Part shown: positions 2,328 through 63,998 of the stretch, one piece after another
Layout: each line of letters opens with the position of its first letter
How positions within the stretch are numbered: the first letter of the stretch is position 1
NCBI GenBank assembly: GCA_934045075.1
Contig: OW203722.1
Coordinates: 961,001-1,025,000, forward strand
Direction: 5' to 3'
Length of the DNA: 64,000 nucleotides
Origin: Yponomeuta sedellus
Lineage: Eukaryota > Arthropoda > Insecta > Lepidoptera > Yponomeutidae
Program-made: the position numbers and the translations under genes
Notes under the pieces: model-generated
The model's database searches: none
Told to the model about the DNA's origin: nothing
What the model saw: only the letters and a program-made list of their open reading frames with translations

Positions 2328-2433
2328 CAAATATCATTTTATCCGTTAAATGTATCTGGATCTGTATGCAATAAGGCCGCTGTACTTCGTACATTTGTAA
2401 ATGTATTGTATTTGTTATTTTTTTTGGGTGTAC

Positions 2434-2671
2434 TATATCAACCCTTGTATGTCCCCACTACTAGGGCACGGGTCTCTTCCTGCATCGCAGGAAGATAACA
2501 CCATACTCACTCATAAGGTCATACAATCCTCCTCCGGGCCTTACTGTTAGAAGTTATCAATCCGCCCATAAAACCTCTGACATAGCTTAACGACTACCAT
2601 TACATAATGATGTGCTTTGCGAAGCACGGAACTGCTCGGAAAAATGCCACGAGCGGTAGTCACGGGACGGT
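2434..2671 (-). mobile_element. 5S-like SINE, 5'-truncated copy
   Basis: The reverse complement of the 3' two thirds of the family: terminal ATATCAACC, the CTTCCTGC..GCAGGAAG hairpin (intact here), then the conserved tail as far as GGTAGTCACGGGACGG. A part of the middle is missing or altered (about 2498-2540). The 5S-like head is absent. Confidence 0.85.
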
Positions 2672-3065
2672 CTACTATAAAGAATATTTTTATCATTTCT
2701 TATCTTATCTTATGTTAGGCCCACAAAGACACCTAAGTAAGTTATGCAGTCTCGCGCGTAATTCACTAAAATATCTCAAAGAGTCTCCGCTGAATAATGA
2801 AACAGCACAGCGCTTTAGCTCTAATGAAAAGGGTATTAGAAAGATAAAAGGCCTGAGCAGCTAGGACGGAGAGCAAAGGGCTGGAAAAAAAGGTTTTCGT
2901 GCAGTTGAGAGCTTCCCCTTTACCGGATCACGACACACGAGCTATTTAGCAGCAGCCGAATGAAGTGCGAGTACCAATTTAATTTACAGGTAACTACGTC
3001 ACAGCCTTCACAGATGTAACTTCATCTTTTTAAAACAATTATTGATCTGTAAATCCCAAAGCCCC
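2672..3065. other. No recognised feature
   Basis: No gene or assignable repeat is seen. The open frames here are short and lack any domain. Confidence 0.4.
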
Positions 3066-3246
3066 TGTTTCACAATGTTCAAATAAAGTTCCAGATAAGC
3101 TATCCGCAACCAGGGCTGCCGTTTGTTCTAAATTTAAATATTTTTTCCTATATTGCGCGTTCGTTAATGACTTCAAATTTAGAACAAACGGCAGCCCTGG
3201 TTGCAGGTAGCTTATCCGGAACTTTATCTGCAGATTGTGACACAGA
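3066..3246. mobile_element. Foldback (hairpin) MITE
   Basis: Two arms of about 70 bp, 3066-3136 and 3175-3246, are inverted repeats of each other. The inner 50 bp are nearly perfect (GCCGTTTGTTCTAAATTT in both). The loop is about 38 nt. The outer ends read TGTTTCACAATG and its complement. There is no coding capacity. The open frames on both strands are mirror images of the arms. Confidence 0.8.
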
Positions 3247-4411: not shown

Positions 4412-4635
4412 TACAGCTTTGAGAATATACCTACCTCGGCTACTATCGGATAGAATCGGATATATTCGTGTAGTAGAAATATTGGAACTAATATGACACT
4501 CAATTTCGAAATCAGAACTAATATGACACTTACTCGTAATTTTGAAATCAAAACTCTATAATCAGGACGAAAACCGGCGAAAATTGACGAAAACCGAAGC
4601 CTACTCTAGAGCCCGAGCTATATTCTAAAAGCTAA
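4412..4635. mobile_element. TA-flanked MITE (TIR ends CAGTCTG), short copy
   Basis: The left portion reads ATACC..CTCGGCTACTATCGG and the right end TATTCTAAAAGCTAACAGACT. Related copies lie at 6866-7079 and 49808-50235. The terminal inverted repeat (about 28 bp, CAGTCTGTTAGCTTTTAGAA) and apparent TA target suggest a Tc1/mariner-like non-autonomous element. It abuts a SINE at 4640. Confidence 0.7.
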
Positions 4636-4639
4636 CAGA

Positions 4640-4835
4640 CTACACAGGCACATACATTGCTTCTGGCCCCACACTAGGATAACCTGTGTCGTGGGAACCA
4701 GAAACAACGGCATCACAAACATTTAAACATCCAAGACCTGGGGTTTTTTTTCCCCAGCCGGGGTTTGAACCCGGGACCTCTTGAATGGTAGGCTGATGCG
4801 CTACCGCTACGCCACAGAGGTCGTTAAGAATGAAC
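4640..4835 (-). mobile_element. tRNA-derived SINE (family B)
   Basis: On the minus strand, a tRNA-like head (GTGGCGTAGCGGTAGCGC as A-box region, GGTTCAAACCC as B-box) is followed by a tail with GGTTCCCACGACACAGG and GGGGCCAGAAGCAATGTATG. A second copy lies at 44242-44445 on the plus strand. The head most resembles a tRNA-Gly by its D-arm and T-arm, which is inference. Confidence 0.85.
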
Positions 4836-5165: not shown

Positions 5166-5740
5166 ACATTTATATTCTGTAGCTGCGGGCAAAACTTTAT
5201 AGGTAAAGTCTGCTGTATTACTACTTACACGTCTTGGCCAAGTTCAAAGAGCAACTCGAAGGCAATCATATCCAGTGATGATGTCCGGGCGATATCCAGG
5301 CGGGCATCCATCATCGGACAAAGGGTATGAAATGAGGGCTGTGGTGGGGGCGGAGTCCGCGGGTGCGGTACTGAAACGTGGCAATGGCTGACAGAAGAAT
5401 CGCCTAGGCGCACGCAGTTGACGCTTAGGAATTCCCCTAAGACAGCAATACCCATACTAACGTAGTTTGGTTTTCATTTACAAACGACATGTCGGATCGC
5501 AATGAAACTTACCAATACGCTTAGAGCCCAATACCAATCTGGGTTTTGATCGTGCTTAGAATTACTGAAAATAAAAGAATAAAAAAAAGTAAAGCACCAT
5601 AAGACTTTTATAGCGAGCAAGTGACCTATTTTAGCTACAAAGATGCTACGATGCAAGAGGCTACCTCAGTAAAAATATTACAGTGATTTACAGTCACTCA
5701 CCTTTTTATTCGGATTGACGTCTTTTTCACTCGTACCGCC
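5166..5740. other. No recognised feature
   Basis: Mixed composition. Short open frames (76 and 60 codons) have no recognised domain. Nothing supported. Confidence 0.35.
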
Positions 5741-5988
5741 TTCATATTCATATTCATATTCATATTCATATTCATATTCATATTCATATTCATATTCATA
5801 TTCATATTCATATTCATATTCATATTCATATTCATATTCATATTCATATTCATATTCATATTCATATTCATATTCATATTCATATTCATATTCATATTCA
5901 TATTCATATTCATATTCATATTCATATTCATATTCATATTCATATTCATATTCATATTCATATTCATATTCATATTCATATTCATATT
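5741..5988. repeat. (CATATT)n hexanucleotide microsatellite, about 41 units
   Basis: An uninterrupted 248-bp run of CATATT with no visible substitutions, followed by AGAATAGAATAG. It gives false frames of alternating Ser-Tyr (plus) and Met-Asn (minus) in all codons because the period is 6. It is non-coding. Confidence 0.98.
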
Positions 5989-6108
5989 AGAATAGAATAG
6001 ACATATTCATACTATCTACTATGAACTATTAGCTACTAAGATGAAATCGCAAAAACCTGGCGTCAACAGAAGGAGCTCCTGTCATTCTATAAACATGTAA
6101 GGTACTTA

Positions 6109-14211: not shown

Positions 14212-14677
14212 GAAGCGCTAGTGGCCTAGTCGAACCAAGCCGTTATCCGTTATCAACCCTTGTATGTCCCCACTGCTGAGGCACGGGTCTCTTCCTGCAT
14301 CGCAGGAAGGTTAGGCCATACTCCACCACGGGGGCCAAGTCCGGGTTGGTGGAGGGTTGTAAGACAGTGGCGTCCAGTGACTACCACTAGTGGCATTTTT
14401 CCGAGCGCTTCCGTGCTTCGAAAGGCATGTTAAGCCGTTGGTGTCGGCTGTCATGTAATGACAGTCGTTAAGCCATGTCAGAGGCCTTATGTAAGGCTTT
14501 GACAGTAAGGCCCGCCACTGTCTTACGATCCTTCACCAACCCGAACTTGGCCCCCGTGGTGGAGTATGGCCTTACCTTGCTGCGATGCAGGAAGAGACCC
14601 GTGCCTCAGCAGTGGCCTAACCTTCCAGAAAGAGACCCGTGCCCCAGCAGTGGGGACATACAAGGGTTGATATCGAA
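14212..14677 (+). mobile_element. 5S-like SINE, rearranged with internal inverted duplication
   Basis: Three blocks in series. First, 14212-14240 is the plus-orientation head (GAAGCGCTAGTGGCCTAGTC). Second, 14251-14371 is the 3' end in minus orientation (TATCAACCC to GTAAGACAGTGGCG). Third, 14372-14677 is the remaining body and 3' end in plus orientation, ending GGGTTGATATCGAA. Blocks two and three can pair over more than 100 bp. The 3' end itself has a local duplication (CCGTGCCTCAGCAGTGG then CCGTGCCCCAGCAGTGG). Confidence 0.88.
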
Positions 14678-14689
14678 AGACAGAATAAA

Positions 14690-17600: not shown

Positions 17601-18416
17601 GTACATACATTGGCATTAAAAATTATTTTGATGGAGTTCTATAAAATCAGTAAAATCTGGCAAAGAACCACTCTTACGGAACCCTACACTGCGGCCCGAC
17701 ACGCACTTATTAAAAGAGCTGGCAGTCCAACACAACATAAAATTTTCTCGTGTGAACACTTTTTTCAGAGCAAGTAGAGCATCTGAACGGGCCATTGTTC
17801 AGCAAGTACATTACGGATGACTTTGCATCAAAAAAGCTAAGGTTGACCTGCGTCGACTGTACTTGCGCTTCGTACTTGGGCAAGCAACTACGCATAGCTT
17901 GTAAGCGGTATTGCAAGCTTCGTCCTTAGCTAAAGCTAGGTTGACCTTTTGTTAAACCCGCTGGAATAACGAAGTTAACTCCTTTCGGCGAAATAGTCTG
18001 AATTGTACTTCAAACAGAGCGCACGATACTAAAGAAAAAAATCCTAACTCGCGTAATTTAATTCAAATTGAAGAAAATCTGGTTTCCACTTAGTTGAACG
18101 TAATACTCAGTAATTGTTGACGACTGTCTAGACATTGAGTCTCGTTAGACTCATGTTATTGATAAAATAACCTACTGATTACGGGTTAAACTTAGTAGGC
18201 CACTAACTCAAGGAATCTCCTTCTTGTATTTACAGTTTTTTAGGCTTAATTTGTAACTCTGTATATACTAAAAGGCAAATAAATGAACAAAAGCCTTACG
18301 CGGTGTTAACTCGCCACCAAGGTAATGACAATCATAACTTGTTTTATAATACGGTTTTTTTTTTCACTGTATTTATTAAGATTTATAATGTTCACTTTTT
18401 CCAAAAACGCGTTACG
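14690..18416. other. 3.7 kb without recognised gene
   Basis: Mostly unassigned. A G run lies near 16147-16161. Two degenerate blocks (15900-16200 and 16850-17250) are moderately GC-rich but contain no frame with a domain. This is the longest stretch with few recognised repeats, so it may be old or unique intergenic sequence. Confidence 0.35.
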
Positions 18417-18569
18417 ATATCAACCTTCGTATGTCCCCACCGCCACTGTCTTACAATCCTCCACCACCCCAGACTTGGCCCCCGTGGTGGAGTATGGCCT
18501 AACCTTCCTAGGATACAGGAAAAGACCCGTGCCCCAACAGTAGGGACATATAAATGGTTGATAACGAAT
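18417..18569 (+). mobile_element. 5S-like SINE, snap-back 3' fragment
   Basis: Begins with 25 bp of the 3' end in minus orientation (ATATCAACCTTCGTATGTCC), then switches to plus orientation at GCCACTGTCTTACAATCC and continues to the normal end GGTTGATAACGAA. Both termini are therefore the same end in opposite orientations. Confidence 0.85.
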
Positions 18570-20259
18570 ATCTAGCAAAAGGCTCTGTTGTTCATTTAAG
18601 GTCAAAGTTCTTTTATTTCTAATACCGCATACTACTTAGAAAGTGCAGTGCCCTAAGTGGGCATCATGCAAAAATTATGGATTACCAGGTGTATATGCAC
18701 CGTGCGGTATATAATAGAAAGCTACATTAAATTAATTCTCAAACAAATGCACGTTCAATTTGCAATGACTTTTGCTGAAAATCAGCGTCGGCAGTGGAGC
18801 ATGTTCCCTGGCGACTTTAAGCTGAGCACAAGGCCTTTTGCCAAATTTAGTTCTTAAGACATTTTCTCAGTTATTGTACCTTGTTATTTTTTTGTTGGCA
18901 ATAAAAACATTTCACTTTCAATGGTACCTTTAGGAAAGGCCTTCTACGCCGCCTATTTGACATTAACACCCGGAGCGACCTCCTCGTTAATATTAACACA
19001 AATTGCTTTGACACGGACAAGCCCCGCGCCAAGCGTTAAACATCAGTGAAAAATTCATTGCATCGTAAATAAATACGAGTGAGCGGTACAAAAGGCTCGC
19101 GGCTCATTTTGATAACTGGGACGGACCTATTCGGGCGTCAGTTAACTCGATGCTTGAAACAAAAAAAAAAACACTGGCCAAGTGCGAGTTTCATCGATTG
19201 ATAGAGAACACATAAAAAGGAAATTACACAGATATTCCTTAACCTTTTAACAGACCGCGGCCTTATCACAAAATATACAATTACAGTTGTTAGACAATAT
19301 AGATCTTTTGCCTTTCCTGAACCACCTGCGGGTTGTCTGGTAGAAAATTCAATTAGCATTAAGTCGACCTTTTGTACATTTTCTTTTGTGCAAAAAAAGA
19401 ATTCATAATAATAGAAGAGACTTTATAAATAAAACTCAAGGTAGATCAACAACAGTGCCGTCAGAAAAGAGTCATTGACAGTATTAATGATACCCAAGTA
19501 TAAAATTAAAAATACGGACAGAAAGTGTCAATGATCTTAAACCCTTAGAAAATTAATCGAGCAAACGATGGTGGAATGATCTCAACAAATTCTCGCTGGA
19601 GTGCCAAATGACCACAAATCTTGGTCTAAAAGAAGGCAGGCTTTTGACCAGCAGTGAAACATACACATGATGGAGGTTACATTAAAAAAGTATTAATAAC
19701 CTAATTCCGGATTGAGTTAATGGATTTTTTGCCGGAAATGACCAACGAGCTTCTATACTACGCGTACCAAATTCTGAAGGATTCCAGTCAAATGAGATGA
19801 TTTCATTTGCATAACTAAGCCCCAGGTTTCGCTATACAATTCGCAAAGTTCCGCATCGTTTCCCACCGCAGCAGATCATGAGAATTGCGCCGCAGATAAC
19901 AATAATGTTAATGCGTTTTCAGGTCTAAGCCTGCTAATTTATGGCTCTATTAAACTCGTTTGGGAGCTTGTACAACTGATAAATTGTGGCGATAGCGCGC
20001 TTCACTGTTAAACACTTGATAATGCGATGTTACGGCCGTTTACAGGCGGCAAAAAGCTGAAAGGGGAAAGCTGAAAGGTTTGTTCTAATCGTGTATGAAT
20101 GAGTACTTTCTGTTGGGAAGGATGCGGCTGCTGTTGCCTTGCTTATAAAGTTATATATAAAACGTTATGGCAGTGGAAGTCTGGGGTACAATGCTTAAAT
20201 TTACTTATCCGTATGTTTGTGAATAGCTCGATTCCAGAAAATATGCGTTCAAAATATGA
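18570..20259. other. No recognised gene
   Basis: About 1.7 kb. A TAACCTAATTCCGGATT motif near 19698 resembles the end of the small element at 26713. Nothing else is supported. Confidence 0.35.
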
Positions 20260-20504
20260 ATCGCTTCCGTGCTTCGCAAGGCACGTTAAGCTGTTGGTGC
20301 CGGCTATCATATAATGTCAGTCGTTAAGCCATGTCAGAGGCCTTATGGGCGGCTTGATAACTTCTGACTGTAAGACTCGCCACTGTCTTACAACCCTCCA
20401 CCAACCCGGACTTGGCCCCCGTGGTAGAGTATGGCCTAACCTTCCTTCGATTAAGGAAGAGACCCGTGCCCCAGCAGTGGGGACATACAAAGGTTGATAA
20501 CGAC
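20260..20504 (+). mobile_element. 5S-like SINE, 5'-truncated
   Basis: Starts inside the body (TCGCTTCCGTGCTTCGCAAG) and runs to the 3' end GGTTGATAACGA. The tail hairpin reads CTTCCTT..AAGGAAG instead of CTTCCTGC..GCAGGAAG: the G-C pair at position 7 is replaced by T-A, keeping that base pair. Confidence 0.9.
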
Positions 20505-21114
20505 GAACGATATAAATCTGACAGACAATGCTTCGTCTTGGATTTCGGCATATATTTCGTACTTTATCCTGAAATAACTTCAAGAAAAGCGGCCACACAT
20601 ATGGCGCATAAGCGGATCGAATTAAGAGCGTTGTTACTAAGAGCTGCTCCTCGGTCATACACGACAGCCTTAAATAGAAGCTTTGCCACCTAGAAACGTT
20701 TTATTTAATCTCTAGTTATGTCTTACATTGCTGTAAAATCGCCACCACGGACTTTTTTATTGAACTTTTTCGAAGTGTTTTAATCAGTGGTGTTTTTATA
20801 AATAAGGCCATACATTTTTTGTAAGAAATAACATGTAATAAAAATTTATGGAAATAACATACCTTCGCTATGTAAACATTTAGTATTATTACAGATATTG
20901 TTTTGAAATATTGTTTTATTTTTCATGGTATAAAATCAAATGAATTTATTTCAACGTAACGAATTTCCATTCGGTTAGCTAAATGTAGAATGTAAAATGT
21001 AAGCCGCTGCCTTCGGGCCGTCTTAAAGTGGAGAAAAAGGCAGTGGTAAAAAAAAATCCACTCGGACCATCTTTTCTCAAGTCAACTTGAAATTGGAGCA
21101 ACAAAACTAAATGG
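20505..21114. other. No recognised gene
   Basis: Nothing assigned, apart from an ATTTATTTCAACG / AGAATGTAAAATGTAAGCC block (20940-21003) resembling 2200-2275. Confidence 0.35.
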
Positions 21115-21230
21115 TATCAACCTTTTGTAAGTCCCCACTGCTGGGGCACTGGTCTCTTCCTGCGTCTCATAAAGCTTAGGCCATACTCCACCACGGGGGC
21201 CAAGTCTGGGTTGGTGGAGGATTGTAAGAC
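21115..21230 (-). mobile_element. 5S-like SINE, 3' fragment
   Basis: TATCAACCTTTTGTAAG, then CCACCACGGGGGCCAAGTC to GGAGGATTGTAAGAC. The tail hairpin is disrupted in this copy. Confidence 0.85.
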
Positions 21231-21510
21231 TCAACAAACATTCCTAAAATAGCGCGACTGTTCATTTATTCTCCCGTGCCTACCAACCAAATGGCATTGG
21301 CAGCTCGCCGCCCATCCTCTACATATTCACAGCGTTTTGTGATTCTTGGAATGGAAATGCTAATAGAATCCGTTCTTGGAAGTGTCTATTCATCTTCAAC
21401 GCAGAAGTAGCATAGCATTAGCATATTCAATGTACTCAGTGACAGTTGCTTAACCAATTTTAGCGCACATTAAAATTGCAAATAGTTGTAGCTAGATATT
21501 TAATTTAGCA

Positions 21511-21869
21511 GCGCTCGTAGCTCGTGGAAACGAGTGATTGGAATCAATTCCTAAGGTCAACAACAGCCGCGGCCAGGTACTGGATGGGTGACCGTCCCGT
21601 TACTACCGCTAGTGGCATTTTTCCGAGCGCTTCCATGCTTCGCAAGGCACGTTAAGCCGTGGGTGCCGGCTGTCATATAATGGCAGTCGTTAAGCCATGT
21701 CAGAGGCCTTATGGGCGGCTTGACAACTTCTGACAGTAAGGCCCGCCACTGTCTTACAATCCTCCACCAACCCGGACTTGGCCCCCGTGGTGGAGTATGG
21801 CCTAACCTTCCTGCGATGCAGGAAGAGACCCGTGCCCCAGCAGTGGAGACATACAAGGGTTGATACGAA
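21511..21869 (+). mobile_element. 5S-like SINE, near full length
   Basis: A head of about 100 bp resembles 5S rRNA, with GTCAACAACAGCCGCGGCCAG and GTACTGGATGGGTGACCGTC matching the region of the 5S internal promoter (A-box/IE and C-box). A body of about 280 bp follows (CCGAGCGCTTCCATGCTTCG, GCCGGCTGTCATATAATGGC, CCACCAACCCGGACTTGG). Two hairpins come near the end, CTTCCTGC-GAT-GCAGGAAG and CCCCA-GCAG-TGGAG. It ends GGGTTGATACGAA with no poly(A). The 5S match is from memory of insect 5S sequences. Confidence 0.88.
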
Positions 21870-25994: not shown

Positions 25995-26224
25995 AAATTT
26001 AAATGTTACACTATTTTTATTTTTAATGCACTAACCCGTGCTAAGGAACAAATTTAAAAACCTATATAGAGGCTAAAAAGAGGTTCGAAATTTCACTGAT
26101 GCCGTGAGTCGCCCATTGGCTCAATTGGTAGAGCGCTGGTACGGATAGCCAGAGGTTGCGGGTTCAAATCCCGGCATGGGTGAAATTTTTAGCCTCTAAA
26201 TAGGTTTTTAAATTTAAATGTTAC
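25995..26224 (+). mobile_element. tRNA-like foldback SINE (family A) with 15-bp target duplication
   Basis: The duplication AAATTTAAATGTTAC is at 25995-26009 and 26210-26224; the element proper is 26010-26209. Order: 5' module ACTATTTTTA..CCCGTGCTAAGG, inverted arm AAAAACCTATATAGAGGC, linker with GGTTCGAAATTTCACTGATG, tRNA-like core 26111-26181, 3' end TTTTTAGCCTCTAAATAGG. The inverted arm is the complement of the 3' end. Confidence 0.95.
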
Positions 26225-26269: not shown

Positions 26270-26550
26270 AATTACATAAACTCACGCCTCACGCCTGTAG
26301 AGGCGTTAGGCCGGCTTGAAAACTGCTGACAGTAAGACCAGCCACTAGTCTTGCAAGCCTCCACCAATCCGGACTTGGCTCCCGTGGTGGAGTATGGCCT
26401 ATAACTTCCTCAGGGAAGAGACCCGTGCCCCTCGGTTGGGTTATAATGGGTTGATGATGATTGAACGCCTGCATCCCAGAAGAGTACATAAACACCAGGG
26501 TTTGCCACTTGCCACGATCCTGAAAGTCCTCTTTCGCTTCATCAACATTA
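26270..26550 (+). mobile_element. Repeat family E, split by a 5S-like SINE
   Basis: The left part, ACATAAACTCACGCCTCACG, and the right part, CGCCTGCATCCCAGAAGAG with TGCCACTTGCCACGATCCTG, form one family E copy. The SINE sits at 26300-26464 between ACGCCTGTA (26291-26299) and ACGCCTGCA (26465-26473), a 9-bp target duplication with one difference. Confidence 0.8.
26300..26464 (+). mobile_element. 5S-like SINE, divergent subfamily, 5'-truncated
   Basis: Shares diagnostic differences with 36050-36395: TAAGACCAGCCACTAGTC, CTTGCAAGCCTCCACCAATC and TGGCTCCCGT. The tail hairpin is shortened to CTTCC-TCA-GGGAAG but the stem is kept. It ends GGGTTGATGATGATTGA. Confidence 0.88.
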
Positions 26551-27215: not shown

Positions 27216-27353
27216 GATTGTAAGGCCCGCCACTGCCTTACAATCCTCTACCAACCCGGACTTGGCCCCCATGGTGGAGTTTGCCTTAACCTCCTCCAAA
27301 GCAAGAAGAGACCCGTGCCCCAGCAGTGGGGGCATACAATGGTTGATATCGAT
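27216..27353 (+). mobile_element. 5S-like SINE, 3' fragment
   Basis: TAAGGCCCGCCACTGCCTTA through CCAACCCGGACTTGGCCCCC to GGTTGATATCGAT. The first hairpin is degenerate here; the CCCCA-GCAG-TGGGG hairpin is intact. Confidence 0.87.
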
Positions 27354-27380
27354 ATTGACAATAATAACTGTAAGTTTTTA

Positions 27381-28173: not shown

Positions 28174-28414
28174 ATACTATTTTTTTATTTTTAATGCACT
28201 GACCCGTGCTAAGGACAATTTTTAAAAACCTATTTAGAGGCTAAAAATTCCACCCATGCCGGGATTCGAACCCGCAACCTCTGGCTATCCGTGCCAGCGC
28301 TCTTCCAATTGAGCCAATGGGCGACTCACCGGCATCAGTGAAATTTCGAACCTCTTTACATTATTCTCTGTATTACGTACAGGCAGCGACATCTAGCTTA
28401 AGTAAATTGCATCA
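28174..28414 (+). mobile_element. tRNA-like foldback SINE, long left arm
   Basis: Starts with the plus-strand 5' module (ACTATTTTTTTATTTTTAAT), followed by a complete tRNA-like unit in minus orientation (core about 28252-28323), then TTCTCTGTATTACGTACAGG and CAGCGACATCTAGCTTAAG. This uninterrupted junction corresponds to the site where a LINE is inserted in the copy at 36710. Confidence 0.88.
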
Positions 28415-28517: not shown

Positions 28518-28576
28518 TAATTATATATTGCGAATGTGAGTGGAAGGGCTGGTAAGGGACGTCCCAGGCGGACATA
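28518..28576 (-). mobile_element. Repeat family E fragment
   Basis: GCGAATGTGAGTGGAAGGGC and GGTAAGGGACGTCCCAGGCG are the reverse complement of 13800-13850. It is cut off by the SINE at 28577. Confidence 0.75.
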
Positions 28577-28880
28577 AGGTTAGGCCATACTCCACCACGG
28601 GGGCCAAGTCCGGGTTGGTGGAGGATTGTAAGACAGTGGCGGGCCTTACTGTCAGAAGTTATCAAGCCGCCCATAAGGCCTCTGACATGGCTTAGCGACT
28701 GCCATTATATGACAGCCGGCACCAACGGCTTAACGTGCCTTGCGAAGCACGGAAGCGCTCGGAAAGATGCCACTAGCGGTAGTCACGGAACGCTCACCCA
28801 TCCCATACCTGACCGCGCCTGTTGTTGCTTAACCAAGTAATTCATTCCAATCACTCGGTTCGCCTAGGCCACGAGCACTC
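28577..28880 (-). mobile_element. 5S-like SINE with head, 3'-truncated
   Basis: On the minus strand: head with CACTTGG..TTAAGCAACAACA in its usual place (plus strand GTTGTTGCTTAACCAAG), GCGCGGTCAGGTATGGGATG, and the body to CCATACTCC. The last 85 bp of the SINE are missing, so it was probably joined to its neighbour by recombination. Confidence 0.9.
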
Positions 28881-28913
28881 CAAAGCGCACGTATGTCATA
28901 CGACGTTTTATAA

Positions 28914-34090: not shown

Positions 34091-35047
34091 ATTATACTCA
34101 ATGTAGCCAGGGCATCAAATATGCTAATTAAGCACTTATTATTTTTCTTTACGAGTAGGCCTGTGCTCTACAGTAGAACGTTTATAGGCTACATCAAAAA
34201 CATTGATAAAAACATTTATTTAGCCTTTTAATCCTCGAAACATGGCAAATTATTTCTACATGAAACAAACAAAACTACAAAAAATTAAAACGTTAAAACC
34301 TTACGGACAAATAAGACTCAAATTAATTTATTCCGGTTAAATTATGAATTACTGTTCTTATGATATGAAATTGAAATTGAAAAAACATTTATTTATCACT
34401 ATCACATTAAAAAAAACCTTAATAATTTATTATCCAAACTTAGGATATTGATAAAAAGGAATTCGCTCAGCATAAATGTTGTGTTGAACACAACGCTGAT
34501 TTTCAGCAAATCCCTGTTAAATACAAGATATTATAAAAATCAATCGATTATGCGAGGATATAGGTAGTTAGTTTACTAAAATGGTATTCTGTGGGAGTCG
34601 ATAATGTAGGCGTATTAACAGAGCTTAAGCCTAAGTGAGTAGGCCTAAAGCCTAAGCTTTGAAGACAGTTTAAGATAAGACTATTTACATAATCTTTAAA
34701 GGTAAACGACCAAAAAATTAACTCCAAAACTGTTTTATTTACGTCGAAACGTAATCGCAGTTGTCAGTTTTAGAAACTAGATTACGAATAAAAGATTGTT
34801 TAAGATTCCGTAGTCAACAAAAAAACTCATAATATAGTTTTAGGTTTTACAGACGTTCTTCTGTCTGTACAGAGAAAAGTTCTACAAAACTTAAATTTAG
34901 TAAAAATTATGTATTAGTCGGGGCAACAAAATTTTTTCAAACCTTAAAAAGAATTGGGTAAATAGATTTCAATTTCCTGTAAGCACAGCATAGCTTAACC
35001 GAAGTGATTAGTTCCAAAGACTCGATTCCACTAGGCCATGAGCGCTT
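34091..35047. other. No recognised gene
   Basis: About 950 bp, AT-rich, nothing assigned. Confidence 0.35.
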
Positions 35048-35168
35048 CATACATACATACATACATACATACATACATACATACATACATACATACATAC
35101 ATACATACATACATACATACATACATACATACATACATACATACATACATACATACATACATACATAC
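35048..35168. repeat. (CATA)n microsatellite, about 30 units
   Basis: An uninterrupted tetranucleotide run. It produces false frames of repeated Tyr-Ile-His-Thr and Cys-Met-Tyr-Val. Confidence 0.98.
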
Positions 35169-35506: not shown

Positions 35507-35624
35507 TTGTTCTAATCGTTACCAACCCTTGTATATCCCCACTGCTGGGGCACGGGCTTCTTCCTGCATCGCAGGAAGGTTAGGCCATACTCCACCACGA
35601 GGACCAAGTCCGGGTTGTTCTAAT
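35507..35624 (-). mobile_element. 5S-like SINE, truncated, with 10-bp target duplication
   Basis: TTGTTCTAAT is duplicated at 35507-35516 and 35615-35624. Between them is only the last 98 bp of the SINE, reverse complemented (GTTACCAACCCTTGTATATC to ACCAAGTCCGGG). Truncation at the 5' side with direct flanking repeats is the signature of target-primed reverse transcription. Confidence 0.93.
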
Positions 35625-35895: not shown

Positions 35896-36049
35896 CGGTT
35901 ATACCAACAACTATGCAGTTTAGAGACTCAGCCCCCAGGTCGTCAGTCCCTCTCATTGGTTGCTTCCCTCACTTCTGCGCCTGTCTCTATGTCTCCAGGC
36001 TAGCACTTTTACACCCCATATTTTGTCTTAGTTACATATTAAACGAATT

Positions 36050-36395
36050 GCTCGTAGCCCTGGCTGCCTGAGTGATCTTAGACAATCACGAAGGATAAGT
36101 AACATAGGGAGCGTAAAGTGCATGGATGGATGATCGTCTATGACTAACGCCAGTGGCCATTTTCCGAGCGATTCCGTGCTTTGCTAGGCACGTTAAGCAG
36201 TTGGTGCCGGCTGCCGTTGATAGATGGCAGTCGTGAAGCCGAGTAAGAGGCTTTAGGGCGGCTTGAAAACTTCTGACTGTAAGACCAGCCACTAGTCTTG
36301 CAAGCCTCCACCAATCCGGACTTGGCTCCCGTCATGGAAAATGGCTTATAACTTCCTTAGGGAAGAGAAACATTTTCTCGATGGGGACATAATTG
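36050..36395 (+). mobile_element. 5S-like SINE, divergent subfamily, long copy
   Basis: The head GCTCGTAGCCCTGGCTGCC and GATGGATGATCGTC is a decayed 5S-like region. The body keeps CCGAGCGATTCCGTGC and GCCGGCTGCCGTTGATAG. The tail has the subfamily markers ACCAGCCACTAGTCTTGC and the short hairpin CTTCC-TTAG-GGAAG. It ends near ATGGGGACATAATTG without the usual GGTTGATATC. Confidence 0.82.
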
Positions 36396-38528: not shown

Positions 38529-38695
38529 ACGCACTGGCAGCGACATCTGGCTGAGTAGATTGCTGATTTTTGAAATTTCACTGATGCCGGTGAGTCGCCC
38601 ATTGGCTCAGTTGGATAGAGCGCTGGCACGGATAGCCAGAGGTCGCGGGTTCGAATCACGGCATGGGTGAAATCTTTAGCCTCTAAATAGGTTTT

Positions 38696-40373: not shown

Positions 40374-40640
40374 AAATTACCACATGATTATATTATTTTT
40401 AATGCACTAACCCGTGCTAACGACAATTTAAAAAACCTATTTAGAGGCTCAAAATACCACCCATGCCATGTAAGTAATACAGAGAATATTGTAAAGAGGT
40501 TCAAAATTTCAGTGATGTCGGTGAGTAACCCATTAGCTCAGTTGGAAAGAGCGCTGGCACAGATAGCCAGAGGTCGCGGGTTCGACTCCCGGCATGGGTG
40601 GAATTTTTAGCCTCTAAATAGGTTTTTAAAATTACCACAT
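40374..40640 (+). mobile_element. tRNA-like foldback SINE (family A), best complete copy
   Basis: AAATTACCACAT is duplicated at 40374-40385 and 40629-40640; the element is 40386-40628. Order: 5' module, inverted arm (AAAAAACCTATTTAGAGGCT to CCACCCATGCC), linker with AATACAGAGAATATTGTAAA and GAGGTTCAAAATTTCAGTG, tRNA-like core 40529-40599, 3' end GGAATTTTTAGCCTCTAAAT + AGG. The inverted arm complements about 37 bp of the 3' end. Confidence 0.95.
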
Positions 40641-46690: not shown

Positions 46691-47016
46691 GAAGCGCTTG
46701 TGGCCTAGTCGAACCGAGTGATTGGAATCAATCACTTGGTTAAGCAACAACAGGCGCGGTCAGGTGCGGGATGAGTGACGTCTCGCCACTAGTGGCATTC
46801 TTTCCGAGCGCTTCCGTGCTTCGCAAGGCACCTTAAGCCGTTGGTGCCGGTTGTCATGTAATGGCAGTCGATAAGTCATGTCAGAGGCTTACCTGCCACT
46901 TACAATCCTCCACCAACCCGGATTTAGCCCCCGCGGTAGAGTATTGCCTAACCTTCCTGCGATGCAGGAAGAGATCCGTGCCCCAGCAGTGGTGACATAA
47001 AAGGGTTGATATCGAA
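46691..47016 (+). mobile_element. 5S-like SINE, full-length copy
   Basis: Begins GAAGCGCTTGTGGCCTAGTC. The head carries CACTTGGTTAAGCAACAACA, GGCGCGGTCAG and GGGATGAGTGACG, in the order and spacing of the 5S rRNA A-box, intermediate element and C-box. The body includes GCCGGTTGTCATGTAATGGC, with a 20-40 bp deletion at 46888-46898 relative to 21511. The tail holds both hairpins and ends GGGTTGATATCGAA. Confidence 0.92.
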
Positions 47017-47029
47017 GCCTTCACGTCAA

Positions 47030-50235: not shown

Positions 50236-50370
50236 TACTTAGTTAAAGGTAAAGATTATTTGTCAAACACGATACGATGGAAGTTTTTCATTTTTAGTGA
50301 GACTTTTTAAAATTATTATTATTACTGGTAATTATACTTTATCGCACACTAACATTTCACAGGACTTTAC

Positions 50371-51888
50371 ATGACAAATAACGTGTACAAAGGCGAGCTT
50401 ATCTCTGTAAGAGATTTCTGCAAGCAAACATTAGAAAACAGTAAAACCGTAGAAAAATGTGTCTGTTTGTGCACAAATATTCCTATATTCCCTGATCTAA
50501 TGAAATATAGTAGGCTCGTTCCTTTATTTAAAAGCGGTGATAAGCAAGATCCCACAAATTTCAGACCAGTCTCAGTTCTACCCGTTTTGAGTAAAATATT
50601 CGAGAAGATAGTTCTAGGTCAGCTGCTTACACATTTCAATGACTATCAACTTCTCCATGGTCAGCAATTCGGCTTTACGCAAGGGCGCTCTACAACGGAC
50701 GCCGGCGTCATGTTAGTTAAACATATATTTAGTGCATGGGAAGAGCGCAAGGATGCTATAGGCGTATTCTGTGACTTGTCGAAAGCATTTGATTGCGTTG
50801 ACCATAAAACACTTCTTTTAAAATTAAAGCACTATGGTATAAACGGGAATAGCCTAAAACTTATAACATCATATTTAGAAGGGAGAGTTCAAAGAGCTGA
50901 TATAAATAGAACTAAATCTTCAGGGTCAGAGGTCAGGATAGGAGTGCCACAGGGATCGATTTTGGGGCCGTTCCTCTTCCTCGTATATGTAAATGATTTG
51001 CCGTTCATGGTTCAAAATATGTCAGAGATAGTATTATTTGCAGATGACACGTCTCTTATTTTTAAAATTAAGAGACAAGAAAATGACCTTGACAATACAA
51101 ATAATGCTCTCTCTCGGGTACTAAATTGGTTTACTTCTAATAACTTATTGTTAAATTCAAAAAAGACGAAATGTATAAAGTTCACTCTTCCAAATGTCAA
51201 AACGGTAGACAGCAATGTTTTACTGGGGAATGACAAATTAGACCTTGTGAATGAAACTGTATTCCTAGGTATCACAATTGATGCAAAGCTTCAATGGGGT
51301 CCTCATGTAGAAAAATTAGCAAATAGGCTTAGTTCAGCAGCATATGCAGTCAAAAGAATTAGGGAACTAACTGACGTCGCAACTGCTAGGCTTGTTTATT
51401 TTAGTTACTTCCATAGTCTTATGTCCTATGGCATACTACTGTGGGGACGGGCAGCAGACATTGAGACCATCTTCGTCTTGCAGAAGAGAGCGATCAGATT
51501 CATTTATAGGCTGGGTAGTAGAGATTCGTTAAGAGATTTCTTTAAAGAAACTAACATCCTGACAGTTGCCAGTCAGTATATATATGAAAACATTATGTAC
51601 GTTAGGAAAAATATCAGTAACTTTAAAACTTTAGGTAGCCAACACAATGTAAATACTAGAAATAAACATAAACTTTTGTTCCCACTATTTAGGCTGGCAA
51701 AGGTTAATACATCCTTCATGGGGCATTGTATACGCTTCTATAATAAAATCCCTGAAGATATATTAAGCTTGCCTGAATCGCGGTTCAAAAAATATGTTAA
51801 GCACACTTTGTGCCAAAAGGGCTACTATAACATAAAGGATTATTTAGATGACAATGAGGTCTGGAATGAAAGCCAGTACAATGTATGA
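50371..51888 (+). CDS. Reverse transcriptase ORF of a CR1/Jockey-like LINE (505 codons)
   Basis: The product would reverse transcribe LINE RNA at a nicked chromosomal target. From about residue 40 it reads as a non-LTR RT: PLFKSGDKQDPTNFRPVSVL, FGFTQGRSTTDA, the catalytic CDLSKAFDCVDHK (135-147), GVPQGSILGPFLF (191-203), FADD (223-226), NNLLLNSKKTK, FLGITIDAKLQWG and a conserved C-terminal region ending YYNIKDYLDDNEVW. No stop or frameshift is seen in 1.5 kb. The N-terminal endonuclease and ORF1 are absent. Residues 1-39 probably derive from flanking DNA, since TAA lies just upstream at 50350-50352. A recent, dead-on-arrival copy; clade is not settled. Confidence 0.93.
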   Translation: MTNNVYKGELISVRDFCKQTLENSKTVEKCVCLCTNIPIFPDLMKYSRLVPLFKSGDKQDPTNFRPVSVLPVLSKIFEKIVLGQLLTHFNDYQLLHGQQFGFTQGRSTTDAGVMLVKHIFSAWEERKDAIGVFCDLSKAFDCVDHKTLLLKLKHYGINGNSLKLITSYLEGRVQRADINRTKSSGSEVRIGVPQGSILGPFLFLVYVNDLPFMVQNMSEIVLFADDTSLIFKIKRQENDLDNTNNALSRVLNWFTSNNLLLNSKKTKCIKFTLPNVKTVDSNVLLGNDKLDLVNETVFLGITIDAKLQWGPHVEKLANRLSSAAYAVKRIRELTDVATARLVYFSYFHSLMSYGILLWGRAADIETIFVLQKRAIRFIYRLGSRDSLRDFFKETNILTVASQYIYENIMYVRKNISNFKTLGSQHNVNTRNKHKLLFPLFRLAKVNTSFMGHCIRFYNKIPEDILSLPESRFKKYVKHTLCQKGYYNIKDYLDDNEVWNESQYNV

Positions 51889-51946
51889 GTTCTATGTTCA
51901 AAATAATAATGTAAACTATGTTAATTAAGGACTTTTGAAAAGACTT
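50480..51946 (+). mobile_element. CR1/Jockey-like LINE, 5'-truncated, 3' UTR cut by a SINE
   Basis: The body starts near PDLMKYSRLVP. After the stop the UTR follows the 9157-9449 copy (GAGTTCTATGTT, AACTATGTTAATTAAGG, ACTTTTGAAAAGACT) until 51946, where a 5S-like SINE begins. The rest of the UTR is missing, so the join is a rearrangement and not a simple insertion. Confidence 0.88.
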
Positions 51947-52260
51947 GCATCGCAGGAAGGTTAGGCCATACTCCACTACGGGGGCCAAGTCAGGGTTGGT
52001 GGAGGATTAAGACAGTGGCGGGCCTTACTGTCAGAAGTTATCAAGCCGCCCACAAGGCCTCTGACATGGCTTAACGACTGCCATTACATGACAGCCGGCA
52101 CCAACGGCTTAGCGTGCCTTGCGAAGCACGGAAGCGCTCGGAAAAATGCCACTAGCGGTAGTCACGGGATGCTCACCCATCCTGTACCTGACCGCGCCTG
52201 TTGTTGCTTAACTAAGTGATTGATTCCAATCACTCGGTTCGCCTAGGCCACGAGCGCTTC
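51947..52260 (-). mobile_element. 5S-like SINE with intact head
   Basis: On the minus strand from GAAGCGCTCGTGGCCTAGGC through GCGCGGTCAGGTACAGGATG and GGTGAGCATCCCGTG to the body, ending CCTTCCTGCGATGC. The last 50 bp, including half of the hairpin, are missing at the LINE junction. Confidence 0.9.
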
Positions 52261-52637: not shown

Positions 52638-52828
52638 GGCCAGCTGTCATGTAATGGCAGTCGTTAAGCCTTATCAGACGCCTGATGGGCGGCTTGATGA
52701 CTTCTGACAATAATTCTGCCACTGCCTTACAAACCTCCACCAACCCGGACTTGGCTCCCGTGGTGGAGAACGGCCTAACCCTCCTGCGATGTAGCAAGAG
52801 AACGTGCTCCAGCAGTGGGGCCATACAA
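52638..52828 (+). mobile_element. 5S-like SINE, 5'-truncated
   Basis: GGCCAGCTGTCATGTAATGG, GGGCGGCTTGATGACTTCTG and CACCAACCCGGACTTGGCTC, ending GCCATACAAG. The tail hairpin is mutated (CTCCTGCGATGTAGCAAG). Confidence 0.87.
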
Positions 52829-53169
52829 GAAACAAACACCTATTCGCTGCGTTGTCAACGGGATCTTAATAACTTGAGTTCCGAGGAACAATTAAACTTA
52901 TCTACTTAAAGGAATCAGCAACCTAAAAGGATATGATAATACGGCCATATTCATAGTGAACTCATGTAAAATGTTAATGTAGGTACTCGGCGGTAAGATT
53001 CTACTTCAATTTTTGCCTGAAGGAAATAATGAATACTACGTGAAAAGGTTTTGGAGCAGACGTGAAATTTGCATTATAAATGTGTTATTGATGAGAGAGG
53101 CATTACGGCGGGGCCGTAGCGAGGGACAGAAGTCTTATCTGAGTATGTATAGTCGCGTGCAATAACAGG
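52829..53169. other. No recognised feature
   Basis: No gene or repeat assigned. Confidence 0.35.
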
Positions 53170-53514: not shown

Positions 53515-53658
53515 TAAATACCTTAGAACCTCGTCTCATTAACCTCTTCTAGCATGATAAATGAGAAATTTATTATTTTAGTGCTCGTTACTGAACGACG
53601 AAACATTTATGATATGACACACGCTGAGTTCCAGCTGCGACAATCTAGATCAATCTAG

Positions 53659-53878
53659 AAGCCGCTCATAAGGCCTCTGGCATGGGTTAACGACTGCCAT
53701 TACATGACAGCCGGCACCTATGGCTTAACGTGTTTTGCGAAGCACGGAAGTGCTCAGAAAAAATGCCACTAGTGGTAGTCACGGGACGGTCACCCATCCT
53801 GCAACTGACCGCGCCTGTTTTTGCTGAACTCAAGTGATTGATTCCAATCACTCGGTTCGACTAGACCACGAGCGCTTC
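53659..53878 (-). mobile_element. 5S-like SINE, 5' half
   Basis: On the minus strand from GAAGCGCTCGTGGTCTAGTC through AACAGGCGCGGTCAGTTGCA, GGATGGGTGACCGTCCCGTG and the body to GGCCTTATGAGCGGC. The 3' tail is missing. Confidence 0.9.
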
Positions 53879-55959: not shown

Positions 55960-56130
55960 GTTGAGGACAGAAGAAAATAGCCATAGCGCTCTGTTTTCAG
56001 CTTGCCGCATCCAGCATCTGCCGGCAGTTTTTCGCAGATCGTCATGCCACCTGGTCGGAGGGCGTCCTACACTACGTTTACCGAGTCGCGGTCTCCAATC
56101 CAAGAATACGTTTACTCCAACGGTTTCATA
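55960..56130 (-). pseudogene. RTE-like ORF2 C-terminus remnant
   Basis: On the minus strand the frame reads DWRPRLGKRSVGRPPTRWHD, DLRKTAGRCWMRQAENRALW, the well-preserved end of an RTE-type ORF2. It is then frameshifted or replaced before the usual tail. Confidence 0.78.
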
Positions 56131-56414: not shown

Positions 56415-56768
56415 AAGCGCTCGTGGCCTAGTGGAACCGAGTGACTGCAATCAATCACTTGGGTTAAGCAACAGCAGGCGCGGTCAGCTGCTGGACGGGT
56501 GACCATCCCGTGACTACCGCTAGTGGCATCTTTCTCCGAGTGCTTCCGTGCTTCACAAGGCACGTTAAGCCTTTGGTGTCAGCTGTCATGTAATGGCAGT
56601 CTTTATGCAATGTCAGAGGCCTTATGCTCTGCTTGATAACTTCTGATTGTAACCGTGCCACTGTCTTACAATCCTCCACCAAACCGGACTTGGCGCTCGT
56701 GGTAGAGTATCGCCTAACCTTTCTGCGATGCAGGAAAATACCCGTGCCCCTGCAGTCCCTACACATTA
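56415..56768 (+). mobile_element. 5S-like SINE, full-length, diverged tail
   Basis: The head AAGCGCTCGTGGCCTAGTGG, TTAAGCAACAGCAGGCGCGG and GGACGGGTGACCATCCCGTG is well kept. The body is normal. The tail has CTTTCTGCGATGCAGGAAA (one wobble pair and one end mismatch) and CCCCTGCAGTCCCTACACA, so the second hairpin and the GGTTGATATC end are lost. Confidence 0.9.
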
Positions 56769-56912
56769 GATCTGGTAGCGCTCAGTTTTTCCGTAGACAG
56801 TTTTTCTCTTTAAAAATGCAGTAGCTGTTCGTCCTTATGGTTTTCCAAGCTTCACGGTTTTGTGTCCCCCGCTTATGTAATGTCTTGTTTCGTGTTTGTC
56901 GAAAACGTGTTA

Positions 56913-59672: not shown

Positions 59673-59693
59673 TTTTAACATCGATTCGATAGT

Positions 59694-60020
59694 GATATCA
59701 ACCCTTTGTATATCTCCTTTGCTGGGGCACGGGTCTCTTACTGCATCGCAGGAAGGCTAGGCCATACACCACCACGGGGGCCAAGTCCGAGTAGGTGGAG
59801 AATTGTAAGATAGTGGCGGGCCTTACTGTCATAGCTTAACAACTAACATTACATACCACTATCGGCTTAGCGTGTCTTGCAAAGCACGGAAGCGACTGGA
59901 AAAAGTGCCACTAGCGGTAGTCGCTGGATGGCCACCCATCCAGCACCTGACCGCACCTGTGGTGACTTAACCCTAGTTATTCATTCCAATCACTCGGTTC
60001 CACTAGAATACGAGCTTTTC
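59694..60020 (-). mobile_element. 5S-like SINE, near full length
   Basis: On the minus strand: head (GAAAAGCTCGTATTCTAGTG, TTAAGTCACCACAGGTGCGG, GGATGGGTGGCCATCCAGCG), body with an internal deletion (GGCCTCTGACAT block missing), hairpin CTTCCTGCGATGCAGTAAG and end GGTTGATATC. CATCGATT occurs on both sides (59679-59686 and 60020-60027), which may be a target duplication. Confidence 0.88.
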
Positions 60021-60294: not shown

Positions 60295-60628
60295 GAAGCG
60301 CTCGTGGCCTAGTCAAATCGAGCGATAGGAATCTGTCACTTGAGTTAAGCAACAACAGGCGCGGTCAGATGCAGCATGGGTGACCGTCCCGTGACTGCCG
60401 CTAGTGGCATTTTTCCGAGCGCTTCTGTGCTTCGCATGGCACGTTAACTCGTTGGTGCCGGTTGTCAAGTCGTGACAGTCGTTAAGCCATGTCAGAGGTT
60501 AGGGGCGGCTTGATAACTTCTGACAGTAAGGCCCGCCACTGCCTTACAATCCTCCACCAACTTAACCTTCCTGCGATGTAGGAAGAGATCCGTGCCCCAG
60601 CAGTGGGGACATACAAGGTTTGATATCG
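60295..60628 (+). mobile_element. 5S-like SINE, near full length
   Basis: GAAGCGCTCGTGGCCTAGTC, TTGAGTTAAGCAACAACAGG, CGCGGTCAGATGCAGCATGG and GTGACCGTCCCGTGACTGCC. The block CCCGGACTTGGCC..GTATGG is deleted. The hairpin reads CTTCCTGCGATGTAGGAAG (one G-U pair). It ends GGTTTGATATC. GTATCCAGA lies on both sides (about 60271 and 60628), a possible target duplication with extra bases at the 5' side. Confidence 0.9.
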
Positions 60629-60819
60629 TATCCAGAGGTGTAGAATAATGAGGAGGACTAGAAAAGTCGTAACTCTCTCAAATGTCCAGAGTTGCACAGT
60701 ACCTTAATAGCCAAATGCTGGAATTTTAGTACAGAAAACACGCTTCTCTTGCTGCCGTAAAACTAGACAGATAAAGGTATATTTAGTGTTCATCAACATC
60801 ATCAGCCATTTGACATCAC

Positions 60820-63932: not shown

Positions 63933-63998
63933 ACCTTCCTGCGATGCAGGAAGAGACCCGTGCCCCAGCATTGGGGACATACAACGGTTGATATCGAA
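63933..63998 (+). mobile_element. 5S-like SINE, 3' fragment at window edge
   Basis: CCTTCCTGCGATGCAGGAAG, AGACCCGTGCCCCAGCATTG and GGTTGATATCGAAG. The first hairpin is perfect. Confidence 0.9.

Follow-up and report, generated by a model that had tools for sequence, protein, structure and literature searches.

SINEs with a head derived from 5S rRNA (the SINE3 class) have already been published from Lepidoptera: HaSE3 (2012; PMC3272025), PxSE4, PxSE5, LaSE2 and CsSE2 (2021; PMC8010984), and further families named SINE3-1 from Lycaena, Chrysoteuchia and Ennomos (PMC8010984, PMC10886601). HaSE3 of Helicoverpa armigera combines a 5S-derived 5' region, containing A, intermediate element (IE) and C boxes, with a separate body and a LINE-related tail; that tail is common to HaSE1 and ends in TGA repeats, and the family is described as rare (PMC3272025). 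PxSE4 and PxSE5 of Plutella xylostella are 5S-derived elements of 389 bp, with tails of (TGA)n and (ATGT)n and a promoter region that is approximately 63% identical to Bombyx 5S; LaSE2 and CsSE2 measure 348 bp and 294 bp, and the copies counted (under a looser criterion than ours) number 4,415 for PxSE4, 1,952 for PxSE5, 1,214 for LaSE2 and 532 for CsSE2 (PMC8010984). The low numbers of 5S-headed SINEs have been explained in these two sources by a promoter that needs upstream signals (PMC3272025, PMC8010984), and a third describes the promoter of lepidopteran SINE3 elements as conserved and the region upstream of it as divergent (PMC10886601).

The family described here, from the moth Yponomeuta sedellus, is a 5S-derived SINE (SINE3) and thus adds a member to a kind already known in Lepidoptera. 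At approximately 365 bp and in many copies, it falls within the size range of SINEs (80-500 bp). Its tails end in TTGATATCG, TTGATAACG or variants of these, and the 21 tails that were read contain no TGA array of the type reported for HaSE3 and PxSE4; likewise, the family is abundant as sampled, whereas HaSE3 is rare. Likeness to HaSE3, PxSE4, PxSE5, LaSE2, CsSE2 and the SINE3-1 families was judged by their descriptions, and a search of open-access PMC text for a 12-base piece of the head returned a single match, in an unrelated yeast paper. What is new is the abundance of the family, the partial extent of its 5S stretch and an internal T5 tract. The explanation that best joins these observations, and which we regard as very probably correct, is that of a 5S-headed SINE3 that is transcribed by RNA polymerase III (Pol III) via 5S-type boxes and is RTE-mobilised.

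Copies in the window and across the genome

The window (the whole stretch of DNA analysed, 64 kb in length) is part of a genome of 657.5 Mb in 57 contigs. A profile was built from the window copies and used to find pieces of the SINE both there and elsewhere. It identifies 22 pieces in the window (Table 1), in good agreement with the ‘about 20’ of a first-pass annotation, and these occupy 4,829 bp, or 7.55% of bases, without double counting; ten begin at the 5' head, one of them being just 58 nt long. The eight copies named in that annotation (four on each strand) all exist, and the positions given for those on the minus strand are the low ends of the copies. The head motif that it quoted is present, but as a composite of several copies. 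With at most two mismatches, GGATGGGTGACCG occurs nine times in the window, against 0.45 expected (none of 100 shuffles reached nine); by coordinates, eight of these matches lie inside the SINE copies and the other, at 56089, lies outside.

Table 1. SINE copies in the window and features of the copy at 46691
Feature	Position	Strand	Basis
Named SINE copy, spanning 5' end and 3' tail, internal deletions	46691..47017	+	profile match 2-370, E 2e-100
Its head, consensus nt 1-131	46691..46814	+	head alignment
5S-type A box TTAAGCAAC	46740..46748	+	alignment to own 5S genes
Intermediate element region GGCGCGGTCAG	46753..46763	+	alignment to own 5S genes
C box, damaged: GGGATGAGTGAC	46768..46779	+	alignment to own 5S genes
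T5 tract position, interrupted (TTCTTT)	46798..46803	+	head alignment
3' tail GTGCCCCAGCAGTGG...GGGTTGATATCG, like RTE-type LINE end (suggestive only)	46978..47014	+	LINE-end comparison
SINE copy, head and tail	21508..21869	+	profile
SINE copy, head and tail	56415..56780	+	profile
Head-and-tail SINE copy, flanks sharing 9 bp	60295..60632	+	profile, flank comparison
Head-and-tail SINE copy, flanks sharing 8 bp	59690..60020	-	profile, flank comparison
SINE copy with head, without 3' end	28575..28881	-	profile
SINE copy with head, without 3' end, adjoins LINE	51944..52260	-	profile
SINE copy with head, without 3' half	53658..53878	-	profile
Divergent SINE copy, head still 5S-matching (z 10.6)	36045..36391	+	profile, 5S alignment
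Head fragment, 58 nt	34991..35048	-	profile, E 2.6e-8
SINE copy, inverted SINE 3' piece within head, doubled tail	14213..14678	+	profile
5'-truncated SINE piece	20260..20505	+	profile
5'-truncated SINE piece	2428..2679	-	profile
5'-truncated SINE piece	52639..52829	+	profile
5'-truncated SINE piece	27216..27356	+	profile
5'-truncated SINE piece	18440..18571	+	profile
5'-truncated SINE piece	26299..26461	+	profile
5'-truncated SINE piece	21109..21230	-	profile
5'-truncated SINE piece	35513..35619	-	profile
SINE tail piece, window edge	63933..63998	+	profile

The copy at 46691 is a poor type specimen, given its C box, its interrupted T tract and its internal deletions; the larger of these are one of approximately 7 nt that follows the C box and another, in the body, that exceeds 30 nt. 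Two other window loci are rearranged. In the copy at 14213-14678 an inverted piece of SINE 3' sequence (14244-14372) breaks the head at about nt 28, and the head resumes near nt 95; at 18415-18571 an inverted SINE tail end directly precedes a 5'-truncated piece, creating a fold-back.

Outside the window, 18 stretches of 10 kb (180 kb in all, at positions chosen as round numbers) were sampled, and 33 SINE pieces (3.17% of bases) were found in 11 of them. Eight of these pieces, all within four stretches, have the 5' head, and two of the eight form an inverted pair with shared flanks. The corresponding density of approximately 44 heads per Mb extrapolates, from those eight, to roughly 29,000 heads genome-wide, with a counting error alone of about twofold either way; many of the tail-only pieces could come from related families that have the same tail. 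An exact 35-mer at the border of head and body has 7,226 matches in the genome; for an exact 42-mer that spans the three boxes (A, IE and C) the number is 1,211, and the reversed control of either has none. The whole consensus, used as a genome query, gave neither matches nor first-look candidates, probably since over-common words are passed over in such a search. Because the low numbers of 5S-headed SINEs have been put down to a dependence of their promoters on upstream signals, a family of very roughly 29,000 heads needs another explanation.

When 41 heads were sorted by a motif near nt 17-23, 15 fell into a TAGGCGAA subfamily (mean divergence 4.4%), 16 into a TAGTCGAA subfamily (9.0%, or 7.8% without the divergent copy at 36045, which was assigned by rule) and three into a TAGTGGAA subfamily (11.2%), with seven further heads fitting none of these; most heads from outside the window had been chosen as best matches to the copy at 46691, so that these proportions are biased.

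The 5S-derived segment of the head

The genome's own 5S genes yield 47 matches to the Rfam model RF00001 (all 47 scored are listed; the best reaches 114.5 bits), and ten of these loci (L009-L018) were read and used as the comparison. Most of the ten carry TTAAGCAACATCGGGCGTGTTCAGTACTTGGATGGGTGACCG, against which the insect 5S string given in the first-pass annotation proves to be nearly right. The genes are grouped on several contigs (C3, C14, C26, C21, C19 and C27), and sequence variants are present among them.

Nucleotides 41-100 of the SINE consensus align with nt 42-100 of these genes at a local score of 30, a value that none of 5,000 shuffles attained (mean 10.5, sd 1.65); stricter scoring gives 49, against a shuffle maximum of 28, and the reverse complement of the consensus scores 11. 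At the core of this alignment, SINE nt 50-92 and 5S nt 51-93 are ungapped and colinear, with 35 identities in 43 positions (blastn E 5e-9), and so the likeness exceeds a pair of short matches. The same A box, IE and C box, at the same spacing, are shared by the SINE and the 5S genes. The match is also found copy by copy: all nine window heads tested resemble 5S (eight beat 500 of 500 shuffles and one 499 of 500), including the divergent copy at 36045, which matches no worse than young copies (z 10.6), while the eight window pieces tested that lack a head are unremarkable (98 to 492 of 500 shuffles were as good). In the opposite direction, 5S copies in the ten loci are picked up by a head model (33 heads, sequence only) with scores of up to 31.8 bits.

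The likeness has clear limits. Nucleotides 1-38 of the head are unrelated to 5S (2,218 of 3,000 shuffles were as good in local and 700 of 3,000 in global alignment), as are the body and the tail, which are absent from the 5S genes and for which 1,585 and 475 of 2,000 shuffles, respectively, scored as high. The tail had been proposed to be unrelated to 5S, and it is; the proposal that the head resembles 5S over approximately 110 bp stands for nt 40-101 and fails for nt 1-38. Judged by alignment, the detectably 5S-derived part is therefore about nt 40-101 only. The lack of 5S likeness in nt 1-38 agrees with the divergent upstream part reported for lepidopteran SINE3 elements (PMC10886601). RF00001 itself matches nothing in the window at an E value of 1, and nothing in two head copies submitted alone at an E value of 10. 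The youngest subfamily has GGGTGAGCG in its C box in place of GGGTGACCG, which counts against the joint explanation given above. In viral contigs, neither the head motif nor an insect-type 5S motif had any match.

Retroposition, probable partner LINE and alternative origins

Among 21 copies with both ends, nine are flanked by exact shared sequences of 8-13 bp, of the kind expected of target-site duplications, and 12 have no exact shared flank of 8 bp; mismatched pairs of flanks share such sequences in 1.2% of cases. The duplication of these nine copies stops 0-20 nt short of the head consensus, and one of them, in L030, has a doubled head start. Truncation is anchored at the 3' end, in that profile position 352 or beyond is reached by 17 of the 22 window pieces and 26 of the 33 outside pieces, whereas the head start is present in ten and eight, respectively. 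The flanking duplications and the 3'-anchored truncation argue for retroposition and, together with the match to the genome's own 5S genes, bear out the earlier assignment to the SINE3 class. The L030 copies at 4468-4831 and 5685-6048 lie in opposite orientation and form an inverted duplication, since they have the same upstream flank and the doubled head start.

The last 40 nt of the SINE are predicted to form a hairpin. The tail resembles the 3' end of a LINE fragment in L025, the frame of which ends in EAYAQQWVDVG and which we take to be of RTE type. This likeness is modest (20 and 10 of 2,000 shuffles were as good for two LINE ends), and five ends of this type of LINE that were read differ from the SINE tail outside the shared motif; the LINE itself is abundant, with at least 150 matches and 33,906 first-look candidates. 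Among the sequences examined from two genome searches with tail patterns, no LINE carried the exact SINE tail. The first pattern gave 11 exact matches, and the seven sequences examined consisted of one SINE copy end and six SINE tails (one of 79 nt, five of 34-37 nt), with no LINE-like frame on reading; the second gave 13 matches, two of them at loci already in the set. By analogy mainly with the precedent of HaSE1 and HaSE3 (PMC3272025), the partner LINE is probably of RTE type.

Several further loci deserve mention. A 511-aa reverse transcriptase frame at 50353-51888 (RVT_1, E 3.8e-33) ends beside the copy at 51944-52260, and LINE sequence like that of the frame lies beside a SINE fragment outside the window, in L032 near 4300. 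In L057, L059, L060, L062 and L063, all picked by the tail pattern, the 3' ends are insertions of just 34-37 nt of SINE tail.

Most lepidopteran SINEs are tRNA-derived (PMC8010984), and a short tRNA-Arg-like stretch does lie near the 5' end of this one. It is nonetheless highly improbable that the element is a tRNA-derived SINE (SINE2) whose likeness to 5S arose by chance: the 5S match beats 5,000 of 5,000 shuffles, all ten Rfam and four ARAGORN tRNA matches of the window lie outside the heads, and the head is not a tRNA-like one with A and B boxes, no B box being seen by eye. A possible, if less than even, refinement is that of a chimeric head, the 5' end of which would derive from tRNA-Arg or a tRNA-Arg-headed SINE and the remainder from 5S; in that case the 5S promoter would once have had a tRNA-type A box upstream of it. 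Such an origin is compatible with the joint explanation. In the TAGTGGAA subfamily, 12 of 13 bases (GTGGCCTAGTGGA) are identical to those of four tRNA-Arg genes of this genome, where they occupy almost the same position; 23-68 of 2,000 shuffles were as good. (The tRNA-Arg search pattern has six matches in the genome, and all four loci that were read were called tRNA-Arg; an earlier pattern had none.) Lepidopteran tRNA-SINE heads have also been aligned with tRNA-Arg (PMC8010984), and template switching between a tRNA SINE and 5S rRNA has been proposed (PMC3272025). Against this, for the heads of the other two subfamilies 132-767 of 2,000 shuffles were as good, a strict A box is found in just two of 41 heads, and tRNA-Arg was the sole tRNA tried, so that the odds are uncorrected.

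An origin as dispersed 5S pseudogenes rather than as a SINE can be given hardly any credence: the core is 5S-like and 5S genes do occur on several contigs, but a 365-bp unit with a body and tail unrelated to 5S recurs thousands of times, and neither the window pieces nor the two head copies searched alone reach the Rfam 5S model. Nor is the element at all likely to be a MITE (a non-autonomous DNA transposon) that acquired 5S promoter boxes. Its consensus is stem-rich and some copies do occur in inverted pairs, but it has no terminal inverted repeat (the 5' end pairs with nt 122-131 and not with the 3' end), the shared flanks vary in length, and losses are mainly from the 5' side.

Of the tRNA matches in the window, the ARAGORN tRNA-Ser calls at 26109-26184, 28249-28324, 38595-38671 and 40528-40600 are probably heads of a tRNA-derived repeat, because at least three of them are near-identical.

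The T tract and the predicted fold of the head

The consensus contains one run of three or more T residues, TTTTT at nt 116-120; the longest T run in a shuffled consensus averages 3.7, and 14% of shuffles have five or more. Of 41 heads, 34 have four or more consecutive T residues between nt 106 and nt 128; in nt 1-105 no run exceeds three (the longest is two in 37 heads and three in four). Genome-wide, exact 35-mers with T5 number 7,226, against 27 with a CTTT variant. All ten of the 5S loci that were read end in at least five T, mostly 25 nt after the C box, as opposed to 23 nt in the SINE; from its position, the SINE tract thus appears to sit about where a 5S terminator would, and the sequence-only head model aligns the T tracts of SINE and 5S in both alignments shown. 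The idea that T5 is the 5S terminator itself was rejected, in that the match, when tested apart from the C box, was not significant (local, 1,520 of 5,000 shuffles as good; global, 328 of 5,000, or 644 of 5,000 with single-base shuffles).

A T5 tract is expected to stop Pol III ahead of the SINE body, and this counts against the joint explanation. The puzzle is how a presumed Pol III element can amplify when its front third contains a signal that looks like a terminator. From what is generally known of SINEs, the life cycle under the joint explanation would begin with recruitment of Pol III via the 5S-type boxes, through TFIIIA and then TFIIIC; part of the transcripts would read past the T5 tract, the reverse transcriptase of an RTE-clade LINE would recognise the tail, and copies would be inserted by target-primed reverse transcription.

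The head is predicted to fold into a three-way junction resembling that of 5S rRNA (z -4.4), with a closing stem (1-10/122-131), a stem at 13-16/63-66, a hairpin (24-34/39-49) and an arm at 67-107; the 10-bp closing stem was equalled in 39 of 5,000 shuffles and the 11-bp hairpin in 15 of 3,000. It speaks against the fold that the closing stem has its 3' strand past the T5 tract. In a set of 33 of the 41 heads (eight with larger gaps were left out by eye), 89.5% of cells are paired; the shuffles give 89.2%, and 82 of 500 come up to the observed value. Pairs changed on both sides number six, against 3.7 (59 of 500). As the shuffles pair about as well, covariation gives the fold no support; slid versions pair in only 29-41% of cells because the structure was taken from the consensus. 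A head model that includes structure brings no gain on the 5S loci (20.5-32.3 bits for the top 20, against 28.5-31.8 for the top 19 of the sequence-only model, a rough comparison given their unequal effective sequence numbers). Nor does it, in the alignments shown, place the closing stem of the SINE on that of 5S. One both-sided change in the closing stem, from G-C to U-A in the copy at 36045, is anecdotal. The predicted fold is thus best described as a 5S-like shape and not a conserved 5S structure.

A bolder and rather unlikely reading is that the head is a self-contained mimic of 5S, which would fold into a 5S-like three-way junction despite a closing stem of new sequence. Its T5 tract, close to where the 5S terminator lies, would then yield a short 5S-like RNA, using the 5S partners TFIIIA and uL18, together with a rarer read-through RNA that is mobilised. 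If true, it would explain tens of thousands of copies despite the supposedly weak promoters of retroposed 5S sequences.

A different predicted structure, a long near-perfect hairpin at 3102-3208 of the window, scores 41.7 of 99 bits as mir-8489 (below the Rfam cut-off) and is more likely to be a small inverted-repeat element than that microRNA.
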